Assembly: GCA_020216805.1 (NCBI GenBank)
Contig: JAIWNN010000128.1
Span: 1-19,679 of the forward strand
Origin: Desulfarculus sp.
Lineage (GTDB): Bacteria; Desulfobacterota; Desulfarculia; Desulfarculales; Desulfarculaceae
Direction: 5' to 3'
DNA length: 19,679 nt
Below are positions 10,378-18,332 of the stretch, one piece after another. The translations under genes and the position numbers were made by a program. Below the pieces are notes generated by a model. It did not search any database, was not told where the DNA came from, and saw nothing but the letters and a program-made list of their open reading frames with translations. Within the stretch, counting starts at the first letter, position 1; each line of letters starts with the position of its first letter.

Positions 10378-12835
10378 CGTCCGGCTCTTCCCCACGGCCC
10401 AGGGCCCGGGCCAACGCCTCCAGCAGGCGTCCGCGCTCCACCGGCTTGTAGAGGATGTCGTCCAGGCGCGCCGATCCCAGCCGGACCTCCGGGGGCAAGA
10501 GGTCCCGGGTCCAGCCGGTGAGCAACAGAAAGGCCGGCGAGGGGCGCAGGCGGTCGGCGGCCAGGGCCACCTCCCAGCCGCTGCCGTCGGGCAGCCCCAG
10601 ATCGCAGATCACCACCTGGGGCCGATAATCGGTCAGGCCGGCCAGGCCCTCGGCCAGGTCCCGGGCCCAACGCACCTGGTAACCGGCGGTGGTCAACTGG
10701 CTCTGGATGCCCAGGGCCACCAGACTTTCATCCTCCACCAGCAGCACCCGATCACCGGTCGTCCCCGCCCGTGGCGTCGGTGGCGGCGCGGCCAGGGGCG
10801 GCGGCTGGGCCCGGAGCAGCTCCACCACCGCCTCGCAGCCCTGGCCGGGTCCGGTTTCCAAGCGCAGATCCCCGCCCAGGGCGCGTAGGATGCCCCGGCT
10901 GCTGGGCAGGCCCAGGCCGGACCCCCGCTTGGTGCTGAAAAAGGGCTCGAAGGCGCGAGCGGCCGTCTCCGGGTCCATCCCCGGCCCCTGATCGTGGAAG
11001 CTGATCGTTACCAGGCCATCCTTTTCTCGGCCCCGCACCCGCAGCACCCCTCCGCCGGGCATGGCCTCCAGGGCGTTCTTGACCAGGTTCAGGAACACCT
11101 CCAGCAAGGCCCCCTGGTTGGCCCGCACCCAGAGCGGGGCGGCCAATTCCAGAACCAGCTCCACCCCGGCTCCGCCAGCCGGTCGCCAGGCCTGGCTGGC
11201 GATGCGCACCGCCCGACGCGCCTCCTGGGCGGCGTCCACCACCGGCTCCGAATCATCCAGGGGAGCTGGGCCGGCGTTGGTCCAGGCGGCCAGGCGCTGG
11301 ACCAGCTGGCCCCCGCTGCGGGCGCTCTCGATGACGTTGGCCAACAGCTCTCCCACCTGTTCCGGGTCCCAGCGGCGCTCGGCCAGGATGGTCTGGACCG
11401 CCTGGGTGTTGCTCAACACCGCGGCCATCAGGTTGTTGAAGTTGTGGGCCATGCCGGCGGCCATCTGGCGCAGGGTTTCCTGGGCCTGGTGCAGGGGGGT
11501 GACGTCGTGGATGAAGGCCTCGACCTCCAGGGCCTCGCCCTCGGCGCTGACCACCCACGCGGTGTGCCGGGCCCATCCTTGGCTGCCGTCCTTGCGCACG
11601 AAGCCGTACTCGGTGGTGATCGAGTCGCCGGGCTTGGCTCCGGCCAGGAAGCGCGCCGCCGTCTGGTAGTAATGCTGGTACCAGGGGTCGGGCAGGATGC
11701 GACGGGTCAGCCCCGGATCGGCCATGATCTCCTCCGGGCTGTAGCCCAGCAGGGTCTCGCATCCGCGATTGACGTATTCCACCTCCAGGCGGTTGTTGCG
11801 GGTCCAGCGGCTGCGGGAAGCCATCACCGGGGCCCGGTCCAGCAGGCTGACCACCCGCGCCAGCTCCCGGCTGGTCTGGGCCAGGTCCTCCTGCACCTTG
11901 ACATGATTGGTGATGTCCATCCCCAGGCTCAACACCCCCCGGCGCCCCTGGGCGGTGGGCAGGCCCACGTGACGCCACTGGATAACCCGTTGGACTCCGA
12001 GAGCCGGCGGCGTCAACACTGTCTGGCTGGCGGCCTGGCCCTCGCTGCCCAGGCCCGCCAGCAGTCGGCGCAACTCATCGACGCCCTCGCCGCTGGCCAT
12101 CAGAGCGGGCCCATCTTGCCGAACGACCTGCCCCAGTCTCAAACCCAGCAGGTCCAACCATTCCTGGTTGGCCCAGACCACCGCCAGGTCGTCGTCCAGG
12201 CGCACCGCCAGCCCCGGCAGGCGCTCCAACACCAGCTCCAACTCCCGACGCGGTCGCACCAGATCGCTGACGTCGCGCACCACCCCTTCGACATGGGTGA
12301 CGTAGCCATCCTGGTCCCGCACCACCCGGGCCTTCTGCTGGACATAAAGCTCCGCGCCGTCGGCCCGCACCGCATGCACCACCTCCAACTCCTTGGGCAG
12401 ATCACCGCTGGACAAGGCTTTGGTGGCGGCGACGCGCACCCAATCCACATCGTCGGGGTGCGTGGTCTTGAAAATAAAAAACGGGGTGGCCCGAATCTGG
12501 TCCAGGGGCCAGCCGAAAATGCGCTCGGCGGCGGGATTGACCAGGTCATACAGGCCGGTGTTGACATCCAGCCTGAAGGACATGTCAGGGGATTCACGCC
12601 ATAATTGATTGATCAGGCGCTGGGTGCGCAGCCGCCGGAGGGCGGCGGCGGAAAGGCGTAAACGAGGGGCGGTCGAGCCAGGTTTTTTTCCCAATCGCTG
12701 CTCCATGCGGCTGGCGGCTTGACGCCAGGCTGGCGATTTTCCGAGGGACGCCCCCTTGCCCCCTCGCGGCCCCGCCTCGCCAACCATCCGAAATATCTGG
12801 CGTTGCGCCATCATTGGCGCCTGCTGGCGGACCAT
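10370..12835 (-). CDS. Soluble hybrid histidine kinase, multiple PAS domains plus receiver
   Basis: This 821-residue protein has no membrane segment. After a basic N-terminal region (about 1-75) come three PAS-like domains at about 78-190 (FRLDVNTGLYDLVNPAAERI), about 195-312 and about 330-450 (YVNRGCETLLGYSPEEI). The kinase core has His464 in GMAHNFNNLMA, an H box of the HxFNN type, the N box NLVKNALEAMPGGG, and glycine boxes DQGPGMDP and GSGLGLPSS. A C-terminal receiver (about 695-815) has Glu/Asp near 701-702, phosphoacceptor Asp745 (VVICDLGLPDGSG) and Lys797 (LYKPV). It probably phosphorylates itself and then its own receiver, with a separate partner not in this window. ATG 12835 has AGGTGG upstream; ATG 12706 is a later option without a ribosome binding site. 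Confidence 0.92.
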   Translation of the reverse strand: MVRQQAPMMAQRQIFRMVGEAGPRGGKGASLGKSPAWRQAASRMEQRLGKKPGSTAPRLRLSAAALRRLRTQRLINQLWRESPDMSFRLDVNTGLYDLVNPAAERIFGWPLDQIRATPFFIFKTTHPDDVDWVRVAATKALSSGDLPKELEVVHAVRADGAELYVQQKARVVRDQDGYVTHVEGVVRDVSDLVRPRRELELVLERLPGLAVRLDDDLAVVWANQEWLDLLGLRLGQVVRQDGPALMASGEGVDELRRLLAGLGSEGQAASQTVLTPPALGVQRVIQWRHVGLPTAQGRRGVLSLGMDITNHVKVQEDLAQTSRELARVVSLLDRAPVMASRSRWTRNNRLEVEYVNRGCETLLGYSPEEIMADPGLTRRILPDPWYQHYYQTAARFLAGAKPGDSITTEYGFVRKDGSQGWARHTAWVVSAEGEALEVEAFIHDVTPLHQAQETLRQMAAGMAHNFNNLMAAVLSNTQAVQTILAERRWDPEQVGELLANVIESARSGGQLVQRLAAWTNAGPAPLDDSEPVVDAAQEARRAVRIASQAWRPAGGAGVELVLELAAPLWVRANQGALLEVFLNLVKNALEAMPGGGVLRVRGREKDGLVTISFHDQGPGMDPETAARAFEPFFSTKRGSGLGLPSSRGILRALGGDLRLETGPGQGCEAVVELLRAQPPPLAAPPPTPRAGTTGDRVLLVEDESLVALGIQSQLTTAGYQVRWARDLAEGLAGLTDYRPQVVICDLGLPDGSGWEVALAADRLRPSPAFLLLTGWTRDLLPPEVRLGSARLDDILYKPVERGRLLEALARALGRGEEPDGV

Positions 12836-12888
12836 TCGGGCCCCACCTGGGCGGCCCAGGCGGCCGCCGGTTGGTCAAGGTGTGAATC

Positions 12889-12917
12889 ATGTTACTAAAG
12901 CTGGCGCGGAGCGGCAA
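12889..12917 (-). promoter_or_regulatory. Possible sigma70 promoter for the hybrid kinase gene
   Basis: On the minus strand TTGCCG (12917-12912) and TAACAT (12894-12889) are 17 bases apart, each matching the consensus at 4 of 6 positions. The transcript would start around 12882, leaving a leader of about 47 bases before ATG 12835. The site lies in the 211-base gap between the divergent kinase and HesB-like genes. Confidence 0.4.
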
Positions 12918-12991
12918 GGACCAGTCCCGCCCCCACCGGAGGCGTCCATGGAAATTTCGCGCCCCCACTTGCCGGGGGGGGGAATCGTTGC

Positions 12992-13007
12992 CATTATTTC
13001 AGTAATG
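12992..13007. promoter_or_regulatory. Small perfect palindrome upstream of the selenoprotein gene
   Basis: CATTA (12992-12996) and TAATG (13003-13007) form 5-base inverted arms around TTTCAG, in an AT-rich patch inside otherwise very GC-rich DNA, about 40 bases upstream of ATG 13047. A TTGCCA hexamer (12988-12993, 5 of 6 to a -35) overlaps it, but no -10 is at the right distance. It could be an operator for an Fe-S or redox regulator. Very tentative. Confidence 0.25.
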
Positions 13008-13046
13008 ATTTTTCGCCCGCGCACCGGGCAGGAAGGATTGATCAAA

Positions 13047-13367
13047 ATGATCGAAGTGACCGAGGCCGCCAGCAAGGCCATCAAGGCCTTCATGGAAGAG
13101 CGGCAACTGAGCTCGGCGCTGCGGGTTTACCTGCAGGCCGGAGGCTGAAGCGGCCCCTCGTTGCGACTGGTTCTGGACGAACCGAAGGACAACGACGAGA
13201 AGTTCGAGGTGGACGGGCTGACCTACCTCATCGACAAGGGGCTGGAACAGCAGAGCGGAACCGTGAAGGTGGACTACGTGGACAACGGCTGGCAGGCTGG
13301 CTTCGTGCTCAGCAGCGCCAACCCCCTGGCCGGGGGCGGCGGTTGCGGAACCTCCTGTAGTTGTTGA
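13047..13367 (+). CDS. HesB/IscA-like selenoprotein (in-frame TGA 13146-13148 = Sec34)
   Basis: Reading TGA at 13146 as selenocysteine gives a 106-residue HesB-like protein that matches the next gene along its whole length, on both sides of the TGA (MIEVTEAASKAIKAFMEER before, PSLRLVLDE and SGTVKVDYVDNGWQ after). Sec34 (QAGGUSGP) aligns with Cys34 of that paralogue, the first of the conserved HesB/IscA Fe-S ligands; the tail CGTSCSC supplies the others. HesB-related selenoproteins are a known family in anaerobes. A SECIS-like hairpin follows the TGA. ATG 13047 was chosen because the paralogue starts identically (MIEV); AGGAAGG lies 10 bases upstream. An in-frame ATG at 12948 with GGAGG would add 33 residues. 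Likely role: Fe-S cluster carriage or redox chemistry. Confidence 0.87.
13158..13195 (+). promoter_or_regulatory. Bacterial SECIS-like hairpin
   Basis: Directly after the in-frame TGA (13146-13148), TCGTTG (13158-13163) pairs with CAACGA (13190-13195), and inside it GGTTC (13169-13173) pairs perfectly with GAACC (13179-13183) around the five-base loop TGGAC. The apical loop begins 25 bases after the TGA and has G as its second base. Both features fit the rules described for bacterial SECIS elements (loop 16-37 bases after UGA, a G in the first two loop bases). It would recruit SelB-GTP-Sec-tRNA. The internal loop between the two stems is asymmetric. Confidence 0.75.
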
Positions 13368-13555
13368 CGCCGGTCTGAGCGGTCGGGCGAGGGCGGTCCC
13401 CAGCCCCCTCGTCTGGCCCCTGAACCCGGCCCGGCGCGGGAATCCAGGCTTCGACACCGCCTCCGAGAAAATTCCATTCCAGGCCGTTGCAGAGCGTCTC
13501 GTCGCCATCCCTGGAACGATTGTAACGCGTCGAAATTCAATCATAGGAGGCTGTC

Positions 13556-13915
13556 ATGATCGAAGTCAGCGCGACCGCAAGCCAAGCCATCAAGGCTTTC
13601 ATGCAGGAGCGCAACCTCAACGCGTCCCTGCGGGTCATGCTCCAGGCCGGAAGCTGCTGCGGAGGCCCCTCCCTGCGCCTGGTGCTGGACGAAAAGAAAG
13701 ACGGCGACCAGTGCCACGAGGTCGACGGACTGACCTACCTCATCGCCCAGGACCTGGCTGAGCAGAGCGGCACGGTGAAGGTGGATTACGTGGACAACGG
13801 CTGGCAGCAGGGCTTCGTGCTCAGCAGCGCCAAACCCCTGGCCGGGGACAGCGGCGACTCCTGCGGGTGCGGCTCCAGCGGCGGCTCCTGCGGCAGCGGC
13901 GGCTGCGGCTGCTGA
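13556..13915 (+). CDS. HesB/IscA-like protein, cysteine paralogue with Cys-rich tail
   Basis: This 119-residue paralogue of the selenoprotein 188 bases upstream has Cys34-Cys35 (AGSCCGGP) at the Sec position. The core is nearly the same (DGLTYLI, QSGTVKVDYVDNGWQ, GFVLSSA-PLAG). The C-terminal tail is longer, glycine/serine-rich, with five cysteines including two CGC triplets, which is more than the usual single CGC of IscA-type scaffolds. A role in Fe-S cluster binding or transfer, or metal/redox handling in the cytoplasm, is likely. AGGAGG lies a few bases before ATG 13556, a stronger ribosome site than the selenoprotein's. A strong terminator follows 19 bases after the stop. Confidence 0.9.
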   Translation: MIEVSATASQAIKAFMQERNLNASLRVMLQAGSCCGGPSLRLVLDEKKDGDQCHEVDGLTYLIAQDLAEQSGTVKVDYVDNGWQQGFVLSSAKPLAGDSGDSCGCGSSGGSCGSGGCGC

Positions 13916-13933
13916 TCCATATCCCCAAGCTCA

Positions 13934-13972
13934 CGGCGGGGGTGGTCCCGAACCGCCCCCGCCGCGCGTTTT
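13934..13972 (+). terminator. Rho-independent terminator after the HesB-like pair
   Basis: A 12-bp stem with one G-T pair is formed by 13934-13945 and 13953-13964 around a 7-base loop (TCCCGAA). TTTT follows at 13969-13972 after four bases. It sits between the convergent HesB-like gene and the 152-residue hypothetical gene, so it could also act on the opposite strand. Confidence 0.75.
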
Positions 13973-13986
13973 CCGGCCGCCGGACG

Positions 13987-14445
13987 CTAGGCCTCGCGCA
14001 AGGCCCCCGCTCGGGCGGCCAGGGCCTTGGCCTCGGGGTGGCGCGACTGGCCCAGGATCGATTCCACCGCCGCCAGGCAGGCCCTGACCACCGGCACGAG
14101 CGGCCGCGAGCGGCCAAGCTGGGCCTTGAGGCAGGTCAGGTCGGCCATGAGGTCCCCGGCCGCCGGCTGGCCCAACCCCAGGTCCAGGGCCTCCAGCGCC
14201 GCCACCAACCCGGCCAGGTCCAAATCCCCACCGCCCCCGCCCAGCAGGCCCCGTCCCTGATCGGTCAGGCGCACCTTGCCGCTGAGGTTCACCACCTCCA
14301 GGATCCCGCCGGCCATCAGGTCCATGGCCAGCACCTCGGCGGCCGGTCGGTCCAGGCCCATTTCGCCCCCGGCTTGCCAGAGGTTGGCCTGGTCGCCGGC
14401 CTGGTCCAGGCGGCGCAGGAGATCAAGGTGCTGATCGCTGAACAT
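13987..14445 (-). CDS. Hypothetical protein with winged-helix-like N-terminus
   Basis: I do not recognise a named family for this 152-residue protein. Residues about 1-70 look like a winged helix: helices FSDQHLDLLRRLDQAG and DRPAAEVLAMDLMAGG, then EVVNLSGKVRLTDQGRGLL, which fits a beta-wing. After a glycine-rich linker, residues about 80-152 are alanine/leucine-rich helices. It could be a small transcriptional regulator or an adaptor. ATG 14445 was chosen over the longer frame from 14517 because AGGAAG lies 4 bases upstream and conserved-looking sequence begins there. It is convergent with the HesB-like genes and divergent from the radical SAM gene. A TTGACC hexamer at 14517-14512 (minus) may be its -35, but no good -10 follows. 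Confidence 0.68.
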   Translation of the reverse strand: MFSDQHLDLLRRLDQAGDQANLWQAGGEMGLDRPAAEVLAMDLMAGGILEVVNLSGKVRLTDQGRGLLGGGGGDLDLAGLVAALEALDLGLGQPAAGDLMADLTCLKAQLGRSRPLVPVVRACLAAVESILGQSRHPEAKALAARAGALREA

Positions 14446-14527
14446 GACGCTTCCTCGCGTGGGGGTGGTTGGGGAGGGACTTTCTTCCAAACTGCCACGC
14501 CCCCGCCCGAGGGTCAATAGCCCCGGG

Positions 14528-14598: not shown

Positions 14599-16356
14599 TT
14601 GCGCCGCAACTGGCGACCATTGTTGGAACACCACCGCGCCCTCCTGGCCAGGGAGCGCGGCGCGGTGCGCAAGGAGCCCGGCGGCCGGCTCAACCTGGCC
14701 CTGATCTACCCCAACACCTACGCCGTGGGGCTGGCCAACCTGGGACTGGCGGTGGTCTACCGCCTCTGCAACCAGCGCGGCCACGTGCTCTGCGAGCGGG
14801 CCTTCTTGCCCGACCGCCAGTCCCGGCCCCTCTACGCCAAGACCGGCGCGCCGCTGCTGACCCTGGAGTCCGGCCGCCCGGTGGCCGATTTCGACCTGGT
14901 GCTGGCCTCCATCTCCTTCGAGAACGACGCCCCTAATCTGGCCGCCATGCTCGACCTGGCCGGCCTGGGCATGCGCGCCATTGACCGCGCCGGCCCCCTG
15001 GTGGTGACCGGTGGGGTGGCGGCCATGCTCAACCCCGAGCCCCTGGCCGAGATCGTGGACGGCTTCCTGCTGGGCGAGGCCGAGGTGGTGTTGGGGCCCT
15101 TCCTGGAGGCCCTGGACCGCCACCGCGACCTGCCCCGGGCCGAGCTGCTATACGCCCTGGCCCGCAAGGTGGAGGGTTTCTACGCCCCCGCCCTCTATGA
15201 GCCCCGCTACTCCCCGACCGGCATCCTGACCGGCATCCACCCCTCGCGCCCCGGTCTGCCCGAGCGCGTGCGCGCCCCCAAGTACCAGGGTCCGGCCGCC
15301 GGTCTGGCCCAGAGCGTCTTCTCCGCCCCCGGCCCCGAATTCGGCGAGATGACCCTGCTGGAAGTGGGCCGGGGCTGCGGCCACGCCTGCCGTTTCTGCG
15401 CCGCCGGCCATGTCTACCGCCCTCCCCGCCTGGGCCGGGCCCAGGACTATCGCGATGCCGCCCTGGCCGCCGCTGCGACCGGCGGCCGGGTGGGGCTGGT
15501 CTCGGCCGCGGTCACCGACCTGCCCGGCTTGGATGGCCTGGCCCGGGAGATCACCGCCGCCGGGGGCAAGCTCGGCGTCAGCAGCCTACGCGCCGACCGC
15601 CTGACCCCGGAGCTGGCCCGGGCCCTGGCCACCGCCGGCCACCACAGCGTGGCCCTGGCCCCGGAGGCCGGCTCCGAGCGCCTGCGCCGGATCATCAACA
15701 AGCACCTGACCGAGGAGGACCTCCATCGCGCCGCCGAGACCCTGATCGGCGCCGGGGTGGCCAACCTGCGCCTGTATTTCATGATCGGACTGCCCGGCGA
15801 GGGCGATGACGACCTGGAATCCCTCATCGCCCTGGCCAAGAGCCTGCGCGCGCAAGTGGTCAGCGCCGCCCGGCCCCTGGGCCGCCTGGGCCAGCTCACC
15901 GTCAGCCTCAACGCCTTCATTCCCAAGCCCTGGACCCCCTTCCAGTGGGAGCCCATGGCCCCCCTGGCCCTCATCGGCCAGCGCCTGGCCCGGGTCCAGG
16001 ACGCCCTCAAGTCCACCGCCAACCTCAAGGTCATCCATGACGTGCCCAAGTACGCCCAACTCCAGGCCGTCCTGGCCCGGGGCGACCGCCGCCTAGGCCA
16101 CCTGATCACCACCCTGGCCCAGGGCCATAACCCGCCCAAGGCCTACGGCCTGGCGGGCGTGGACCCGGATTTTTACGCCCATCGCCGCCTCCAACCCGAC
16201 CAATTCCTGCCCTGGTCGATAGTCGACCATGGCATCGACCACGACTATCTTTGGCAAGAAGCCCAACGCGCCGCCCAGGGACTAGCCTCCCCCACCTGCC
16301 ACCCCGGCCGTTGCACCCGCTGCGGCGCGTGCGAGGGAGGCGGGGAGGGGGAGTAG
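14599..16356 (+). CDS. B12-binding-type radical SAM protein
   Basis: This 585-residue protein has an N-terminal cobalamin-binding-like Rossmann region (about 30-170, ALIYPNTYAVGLANLGL and VVTGGVAAMLNP), then a radical SAM core with the [4Fe-4S] motif CGHACRFC (Cys260, Cys264, Cys267), and LAPEAGSERLRRIINK and YFMIGLPGEGDDD further on. A C-terminal four-cysteine motif (Cys567, 572, 575, 578; CHPGRCTRCGAC) probably holds a second metal or cluster. It resembles an uncharacterised radical SAM family often followed by a DUF2344-type partner, which is absent here. The start is TTG 14599 with AGGGGAGG 5 bases upstream; ATG 14595 is in another frame. The substrate is unknown; a cobalamin dependence is plausible but unproven. 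Confidence 0.9.
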   Translation: MRRNWRPLLEHHRALLARERGAVRKEPGGRLNLALIYPNTYAVGLANLGLAVVYRLCNQRGHVLCERAFLPDRQSRPLYAKTGAPLLTLESGRPVADFDLVLASISFENDAPNLAAMLDLAGLGMRAIDRAGPLVVTGGVAAMLNPEPLAEIVDGFLLGEAEVVLGPFLEALDRHRDLPRAELLYALARKVEGFYAPALYEPRYSPTGILTGIHPSRPGLPERVRAPKYQGPAAGLAQSVFSAPGPEFGEMTLLEVGRGCGHACRFCAAGHVYRPPRLGRAQDYRDAALAAAATGGRVGLVSAAVTDLPGLDGLAREITAAGGKLGVSSLRADRLTPELARALATAGHHSVALAPEAGSERLRRIINKHLTEEDLHRAAETLIGAGVANLRLYFMIGLPGEGDDDLESLIALAKSLRAQVVSAARPLGRLGQLTVSLNAFIPKPWTPFQWEPMAPLALIGQRLARVQDALKSTANLKVIHDVPKYAQLQAVLARGDRRLGHLITTLAQGHNPPKAYGLAGVDPDFYAHRRLQPDQFLPWSIVDHGIDHDYLWQEAQRAAQGLASPTCHPGRCTRCGACEGGGEGE

Positions 16357-16522: not shown

Positions 16523-16585
16523 ATGAAGCAATCTCTTCTCCAACCTGCGCGATGCCTAACCGGCCAAGGAGGCCGCGATGTCTGA
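16523..16585 (+). CDS. Possible 20-residue leader peptide overlapping the next start
   Basis: A short frame (starting MKQSLLQPARCL) has an excellent ribosome site, GAGGAG at 16509-16514, 8 bases before its ATG. Its TGA stop (16583-16585) overlaps the start of the downstream gene (ATG 16578) by 8 bases. This could couple translation or be a chance open frame. The peptide has no recognisable features. Confidence 0.3.
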   Translation: MKQSLLQPARCLTGQGGRDV

Positions 16586-18332
16586 CGAGCTGACCACCGC
16601 CGATCTCCTGCGCGATCCCGGCCGCCTCCTGGCCCTGGAGCGGCGCGACCCGCGCGCGGCCGAGGCCCTGTGGAACCACCTGAGCCCGGACCAACGCCTG
16701 CGCGTGGTCCTGGCCGCCTCCCCGCCCCAGCGCGAGAAGCTGATCACCCTGGCCCCGAACAGCCTGGAGCTGACCCAGGCCCTGGCCCCGGACGAGTTCG
16801 CCGCCACCGTCCTGGCCCTGGGCCCCGAGGACGCCGGCCAGCTGATCGAGTTTTCCAGCGACGAGCAGTTGACCTACGTCCTGGACCTCACCGGCTGGGT
16901 GCGCGAGGACTTCGCCCCCTCCCGCTACGAGACCTGGCTGCCCCTGGTCCTGGAGGCCGGCTCCGAGCGGTTGCAGCGTTGGCTGGAGTCCACCGACCTG
17001 GAGGTGCTGGCCCTCCTCTGCGCCCACTGGTTCCGGGTGGTCAAGTGGCTGCCCAGCCAGGACCAGCAGGAGCCGCCCGACGATTTGCCAAGCTTCACCT
17101 TGGACGGCGTCTATTTCATCGATTTCCGCGACGAAAGCGCCTCCAGCCTGCCAGCCCAGGTCCTGGTGGTGCTGAAAAGCGAGCTGGAGCACCGCTATTA
17201 CGAGGTGATGGAGGCCATGCTCTGGGAGTCGGCCGCCGGCATGGCCGAGGATGCCCGGCGCTGGCGGGGGGGGCGGCTGCAGGATCATGGCTTCCCCGAG
17301 CGACTGGAGGCCCTGGAGCTCTGGGCCCGCCCCGCTCCGGGCGAGGCTGACTGGCGAAACCTGCCCACTAAGGCCGAGCTGGGCTTCCTGCGCGAGGCCC
17401 CGCCCCGCTCCGACGCCCTGCTGAACCTGCTGGATCCCGACCTTTCCCTGCCCGCCCTGGCCAGCGGGATGGACCCGGCCGCGGCCGACGCGTTGAAGGC
17501 CGAACTGGCCTACGTGGCCAACTGCGCGGTGGTGGCCCTGGACGCCGATCCCGCCCAGCCCGAGGCGGTGGCCCGGGCCGGCCGCGAGGGCCTGGCCCTG
17601 GTCAACCTGGGCCTGGAGCTGATGACCCGTGAACGCCCAGAGGAGGCCGCCCAGGTGCTGGCACGCATGACCTGCGCCGCCCTGGCCCGCCAGGGCGCGG
17701 CCGCCATCCGGGCGTTGAACCAGCGGGCCTGGGCCCTGATGCGTGACGGCTGGCTCAAGGACATCCCCAACGGCCTGCACTTCCTGGACCCGCCCCTGGA
17801 CCGCTGGCTGGGTGGTTTGCTCTTCCCCAAGCCCCGCTGCCACGACCCCCGCCTGCCCGAGGGGCGCGAGTACCGCGCCTTCACCACCCGGGAGGACCTG
17901 GACCGCGCCGCCCACGCCCTGACCCAGGCCGAGTTCTGGCCGGTGCTGCTGTTTGATCTCCTGGGTCTGGACCGCCGGGAGCTCAGGGCCCTGTTTGAGC
18001 GTAAGATCTGGCCCGAGGACTCCCGCGAGGTCCGGGCCAGCGGGGTGGTGGCCACCTGGCTGGCCCGCCAGGCCCTGGGCCTGCCCGGCCTGGCCCCCCT
18101 GCCTCCGGCCAGCCTGGGACCGGCGGTGGCCGCCCTCAAGGCCGGACTGCAAGGCCCCCTGGCCCGCCGGCTCCACCAGTCCTGTCAGGCCCTGGCCGAT
18201 CCCGTCCAGGCGGCCCTGGCCCGGGAGACCCTGGGCCAGACCTTGTGGCTCATGGCCCAAGAGCTATCCGGCCTGGATCCATCCCAAACCCTGGAGCCCC
18301 GGTTCGTGGGTCTTTTGGTGATCGAGCGATGA
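16578..18332 (+). CDS. DUF6178-like protein of unknown function
   Basis: The 584-residue, leucine/alanine-rich, mostly helical protein resembles the DUF6178 family I associate with Desulfobacterota; this is recognition by memory of layout and is not certain. The N-terminus (about 1-130) is helical (LLRDPGRLLALERRDPRAAEALWNHL, in repeats ending LSPDQRLRV, LAPDEFAATV and SDEQLTYVLDL), reminiscent of HEAT-like or MgtE-N-like repeats. No transmembrane segment, signal peptide or catalytic motif is visible, so it is probably cytoplasmic. AAGGAGG precedes ATG 16578. Its stop overlaps the ubiE start (ATGA), so the two are probably made together; a link with quinone biosynthesis or respiration is inference. 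Confidence 0.8.
   Translation: MSDELTTADLLRDPGRLLALERRDPRAAEALWNHLSPDQRLRVVLAASPPQREKLITLAPNSLELTQALAPDEFAATVLALGPEDAGQLIEFSSDEQLTYVLDLTGWVREDFAPSRYETWLPLVLEAGSERLQRWLESTDLEVLALLCAHWFRVVKWLPSQDQQEPPDDLPSFTLDGVYFIDFRDESASSLPAQVLVVLKSELEHRYYEVMEAMLWESAAGMAEDARRWRGGRLQDHGFPERLEALELWARPAPGEADWRNLPTKAELGFLREAPPRSDALLNLLDPDLSLPALASGMDPAAADALKAELAYVANCAVVALDADPAQPEAVARAGREGLALVNLGLELMTRERPEEAAQVLARMTCAALARQGAAAIRALNQRAWALMRDGWLKDIPNGLHFLDPPLDRWLGGLLFPKPRCHDPRLPEGREYRAFTTREDLDRAAHALTQAEFWPVLLFDLLGLDRRELRALFERKIWPEDSREVRASGVVATWLARQALGLPGLAPLPPASLGPAVAALKAGLQGPLARRLHQSCQALADPVQAALARETLGQTLWLMAQELSGLDPSQTLEPRFVGLLVIER

Follow-up and report, generated by a model that had tools for sequence, protein, structure and literature searches.

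A gene at positions 13047 to 13367 of the DNA analyzed here (a 19,679-nucleotide stretch of Desulfarculus sp. contig JAIWNN010000128.1, called the window below) probably makes a selenocysteine (Sec)-containing A-type Fe-S carrier-like protein by SECIS/SelB read-through at UGA 13146. Judging from the sequence comparisons that follow, we give this reading a probability of roughly 0.88. It would confirm a selenoprotein where ordinary ORF calling splits the gene in two. The features of the gene are as follows.

13047..13367, + strand: putative gene for a Sec-containing, A-type Fe-S carrier-like protein of the IscA/HesB type; 106 residues and a stop codon, from translation and profile matches
13030..13036, + strand: AGGAAGG resembling a ribosome-binding site, 10 bases ahead of the ATG, read from the sequence
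13146..13148, + strand: in-frame TGA, probably decoded as Sec at residue 34, where IscA has its first cluster-ligand Cys
13169..13183, + strand: apical SECIS hairpin GGTTC-TGGAC-GAACC, from folding and from comparison of TGA and Cys copies
13158..13195, + strand: possible full SECIS with lower helix, a prediction that is not significant against synonymous recoding
13365..13367, + strand: terminal TGA, best taken for a plain stop codon, as relatives that share the CSC ending terminate in TAA, TAG, or TGA

Reading frame, family, and ligand site

The preliminary description of this DNA had proposed a frame broken by a single TGA, and translation bears this out: the TGA at 13146-13148 is the only one in frame between the ATG at 13047 and the terminal TGA at 13365-13367. 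It was also right that standard annotation would yield two broken ORFs (calling with table 11 gives 12756-13148 and 13161-13367) and that homology to the downstream paralogue continues on both sides of the TGA, with 73% identity between the two products. Across the TGA, the window product also shares 86% identity with the nearest protein from a congener. A second Sec at the terminal TGA was considered and is unsupported, since the stop codon varies among relatives that share the CSC ending (TAA or TAG in L014, L017, L025, and L029; TGA in, e.g., L016, L024, and L038).

The read-through product is a member of the NCBIfam family NF038090 (IscA_HesB_Se), which it matches over its full length at 125.6 bits (curated cut-off, 85). 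The downstream Cys copy also matches at full length and above the cut-off (102.7 bits), and none of 14 control genomes exceeded 85 bits. Many NF038090 relatives, among the matches listed, carry an in-frame TGA; the window gene shares this and the full-length match with them and is distinct only by its adjoining Cys twin. The broader models TIGR00049 (61 bits; cut-off, 58.8) and Pfam Fe-S_biosyn PF01521 (37.2 bits; cut-off, 26.3) were also matched by the read-through product. Scores fell below the cut-offs of the IscA equivalog TIGR02011 (49.8 bits; cut-off, 150.6), SufA TIGR01997 (45.9 bits; cut-off, 136.2), and ErpA NF010147 (47.3 bits; cut-off, 117). Similarity to TIGR01911 (HesB_rel_seleno) is partial, at 40.8 bits against a cut-off of 66.35, and the protein is not a member of that group.

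The gene thus belongs to an already known HesB/IscA selenoprotein family, as had been said of it, and the Cys copy alongside is the less usual detail. In the portion of Zhang et al. 2006 (PMC1794560) considered here, Table 1 holds 11 HesB-like selenoproteins, several of them from Deltaproteobacteria; two Sec-to-Cys conversions are reported within the HesB-like family, and the legend to Figure 4 describes a Desulfitobacterium Cys form that keeps a SECIS remnant. That set may correspond to either the NF038090 or the TIGR01911 group. The same portion makes no mention of tandem Sec/Cys pairs, which may be in print elsewhere.

The TGA aligns with the Cys of the GGCSG or SGCSG motif in AQ_1857, HI1723, and Escherichia coli IscA. 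We take this residue to be the first of three cluster ligands, so that the earlier placement of Sec on an Fe-S ligand cysteine stands. Position 34 is Sec or Cys in all of 28 aligned sequences, C100 does not vary among them, and C106 is nearly invariant. An AlphaFold model built from the 28 sequences, with Cys in place of Sec, had a mean pLDDT of 83.2 and a pTM of 0.69; the pLDDT was below 50 in the tail (residues 97 to 106), where the presumed ligands lie. A Foldseek search with the model returned IscA 1r94 as the best PDB match (E value, 1.6e-7; TMq, 0.74), followed by the [2Fe-2S] IscA 1x0g. The window protein shares this predicted fold and the first ligand Cys position with canonical IscA, SufA, and ErpA, and it differs from them in its sub-cut-off scores, in Sec for the first Cys, and in its tail, which ends CGTSCSC.

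On these comparisons and the model, the protein is most likely an A-type carrier with a selenolate as its first ligand, in which Sec34 and the tail cysteines C100, C104, and C106 most likely bind an Fe-S cluster or iron and pass it onward. A Sec-based redox or selenium-handling protein that has the IscA fold and is not a cluster carrier is unlikely, if still worth weighing: the Cys-rich tail with its CxC ending beside Sec34 would suit such a protein, as would the scores under the equivalog cut-offs, whereas the location of Sec at the cluster-ligand site and the invariance of C100 and near-invariance of C106 are what we would expect of A-type carriers. In a carrier, selenolate for thiolate could alter the lability or redox behavior of the cluster; any advantage of selenium there is presumptive.

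The hairpin downstream of the TGA

The apical stem (5 bp) is formed by 13169-13173 and 13179-13183 and closes the loop TGGAC at 13174-13178. Such a hairpin shortly after the UGA, with a G in the apical loop, is shared with bacterial selenoproteins. When the peptide was held fixed and codons were drawn from 13 window genes, the full stem paired in register in 2.6% of synonymous draws, and the same apical stem appeared in the minimum-energy fold in 1.0%. The 0.026 chance value is partly explained by a rare Val codon, GTT (13 of the 397 Val codons in the 13 window genes); the Cys twin has GTG at this point of the stem. The apical stem therefore exceeds chance modestly from the window gene alone. 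Overall folding energy was weakly distinguished from dinucleotide shuffles (z, −2.32; 8 of 200 shuffles equally good) and ordinary under synonymous recoding, with 52% of recodings folding equally well. Because of this, we dropped overall energy as evidence for a SECIS and relied on the apical hairpin, and the window gene alone lends no support to the lower helix. The two-part hairpin of the preliminary description accordingly keeps its apical part, loop TGGAC included, and loses its lower stem as far as the window gene goes; the 25 bases said to separate it from the TGA lie between the TGA and the loop, not the stem. An Rfam search at gathering thresholds returned no match within the window.

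The main weight for the SECIS, which we regard as strong, comes from comparison across copies of the gene. A profile search of 107 loci, picked by score, for second copies in the family, or for a visible pair (G348), gave 122 copies, of which 92, including that of the window, carry TGA at this codon and 30 carry Cys. The Cys set includes distant ordinary IscA-type sequences (L051 and L052) and identical pieces from one congener, G003 (L039 and L119). The TGA copies come from many families of the phylum plus a few other records. All five pairs of a stem at bases 21 to 25 and 31 to 35 after the codon, enclosing a loop of 5 bases, are present in 89 of the 92 TGA copies and in none of the 30 Cys copies. 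At registers 1 to 3 bases off in either direction, the stem was found in at most 1 of the 92 and at most 2 of the 30, respectively. The loop of the 89 complete hairpins is TGGAT in 68, TGGAC in 20, and TGGCT in 1. Three TGA copies fall short of the full stem: L022 and L090 (4 of 5 pairs each) and L122 (1 of 5). In L122 (genome G070, around 1600-1650), the stretch after the TGA folds into another hairpin.

Among 90 TGA copies, a count that omits L122 and L044, the middle pair of the stem (13171/13181) is C-G in 70, T-A in 19, and T-G in the remaining one. Its switch maps onto the tree as two changes of one base and three of the other, too few for the sign test to have power, and we consider the covariation suggestive, not strong.

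The protein beyond the TGA is conserved in nearly all TGA copies, L044 diverging after 74 matched residues. Relatives with a plain stop and nothing conserved downstream, a concern of the preliminary description, were not what we found: TGA, protein, and hairpin are kept. A frameshift was rejected on this conservation of TGA and protein together with the TGA-specific hairpin across copies. Carriage on plasmids was also considered and set aside; tblastn matches in 18 records were only 28.6 to 37.0% identical, 17 of them to annotated Fe-S assembly proteins, and the remaining record (Acetoanaerobium) has no annotated feature there.

Selenocysteine machinery and the decoding of the UGA

The comparative evidence suggests that SelB with Sec-tRNA(Sec) would bind the hairpin just past UGA 13146, with insertion of Sec at residue 34. 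The host bin (1.83 Mb, 55% complete) contains selA (602 bits), selB (379 bits), and selD (364 bits), all above their cut-offs, and its selD carries an in-frame TGA of its own. We did not find selC in the 55% complete bin, where four matches below the cut-off of the tRNA-Sec model are tRNA-Ser, tRNA-Trp, tRNA-Ser, and tRNA-Gly. A tRNA-SeC with anticodon TCA (70.4 bits) is present in two of the five congeners (G002 and G004); in the other three (G001, G003, and G005), the tRNA-Sec model had no match above the cut-off. Of the four genes that had been named as a check on Sec, selA, selB, and selD are hence in the bin itself, and selC is seen in the two congeners.

One of these congeners, G002, also has a tRNA with the Cys anticodon GCA and a long variable arm (locus L058, 1501-1597). 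The Rfam tRNA-Sec model matches it at 56.7 bits (gathering score, 47), and ARAGORN calls it tRNA-Cys; in a DNA search of 20 genomes of the family, it turned up in 1 and was absent from the host bin. This Sec-like tRNA-Cys could be of interest in itself. Sec-like tRNA-Cys species have reportedly been proposed as opal suppressors in deltaproteobacteria, and the G002 tRNA would lend itself to an account in which a suppressor tRNA reads the UGA as Cys or another amino acid and not as Sec. We consider such suppression very improbable: an anticodon GCA reads UGC and UGU and not UGA, the DNA search placed the tRNA in only 1 of the 20 family genomes, a SECIS-like hairpin lies downstream of the TGA, and a proper tRNA-Sec with anticodon TCA exists in both G002 and G004.

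Hardly credible is a pseudogene or sequencing error, in which the TGA would simply be a nonsense mutation and the intact Cys copy downstream would do the work, for while that copy and the two-piece ORF call might invite it, the same TGA recurs in 92 copies with the protein conserved beyond it in nearly all, the hairpin is specific to those copies, and selA, selB, and selD are present in the bin.

The tandem Cys copy and neighboring genes

The features of the region that follows the Sec gene are listed here, the last two given for context.

13556..13915, + strand: tandem paralogue with CC replacing Sec, no hairpin, and a longer Cys-rich tail, from profile match and comparison
13545..13550, + strand: ribosome-binding-like AGGAGG of the Cys copy, read from the sequence
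13987..14517, − strand: convergent gene that neither Pfam nor NCBIfam matches at an E value of 0.01
14599..16356, + strand: radical SAM protein, TIGR03960-like (361.1 bits, below the cut-off of 462.3)

The Cys twin is intact, begins 188 bases downstream of the Sec gene, and has 2 of the 5 stem pairs of the apical hairpin. By tree path, its nearest sequences are Sec copies of congeners and the window's own. Most likely it is a duplicate in which Sec was swapped for Cys and the SECIS was lost, a direction of change that we infer. A Cys copy on the same strand accompanies the Sec copy in 14 of the 91 loci that have one, with 127 to 380 bases between the matched stretches; this rate is biased by the choice of loci, and contig ends may hide further twins. 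One of the 91 (L017) has a second Sec copy. The Sec copy precedes its Cys twin in 11 pairs and follows it in 3 (L084, L088, and L089), and the pairs are spread over four families (f1, f6, f20, and f45).

We built a quick tree from 119 sequences over 109 columns. Of its 115 forks, 51 are open, and it does not give the direction of Sec/Cys change; it leaves out 3 of the 122 copies (L119, partial; L052, distant; and L044, diverging). A single ancient duplication behind all 14 Cys twins (a single clade) was rejected by the AU test (P, 3.8e-6), a value weakened by the choice of the test after inspection of the tree. On starred branches, the twins of L016 pair as sisters (98), as do those of L129 (100) and both Sec copies of L017 (99). 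The tree requires a minimum of 14 Sec/Cys changes, or 6 counting starred branches alone. From the rejected single clade, the sister twins, and these repeated changes, we conclude that the pairs arose more than once. The position of the window's own twin on the tree is weakly supported.

Other genomes of the genus and family show different states of the locus. Congener G001 has the same convergent neighbor and radical SAM gene with no twin between, as would be expected if the window's lineage had gained the twin or G001 had lost it. Congener G003 (97% complete), in which selA and selB are present, yielded only the Cys form, which suggests that the genus can do without the Sec form. At L120 (genome G011, same family), again only the Cys form was found, adjoining the same radical SAM gene; Sec may have given way to Cys in place at this locus.

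It is possible, though doubtful, that pairs which arose repeatedly act as a unit, either as a selenium-regulated switch or as a mixed selenolate/thiolate dimer on one cluster. Were the switch to operate, the Sec form would be made when selenium is plentiful and the Cys form when it is scarce. Shared regulation of the twins was considered and gained no support from a simple promoter and terminator scan of 12830-14020, which returned no site on the + strand. In any case, the Sec/Cys twins are matched natural pairs in one genome with which the contribution of selenium to an A-type carrier could be tested.

The convergent gene and the radical SAM gene were each matched beside the Sec gene in 11 of the 106 fetched loci, which have short flanks. 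Farther downstream, a full-length DUF6178 protein (16578-18332, + strand; 436.9 bits) is flanked by the radical SAM gene and a UbiE-like methyltransferase.
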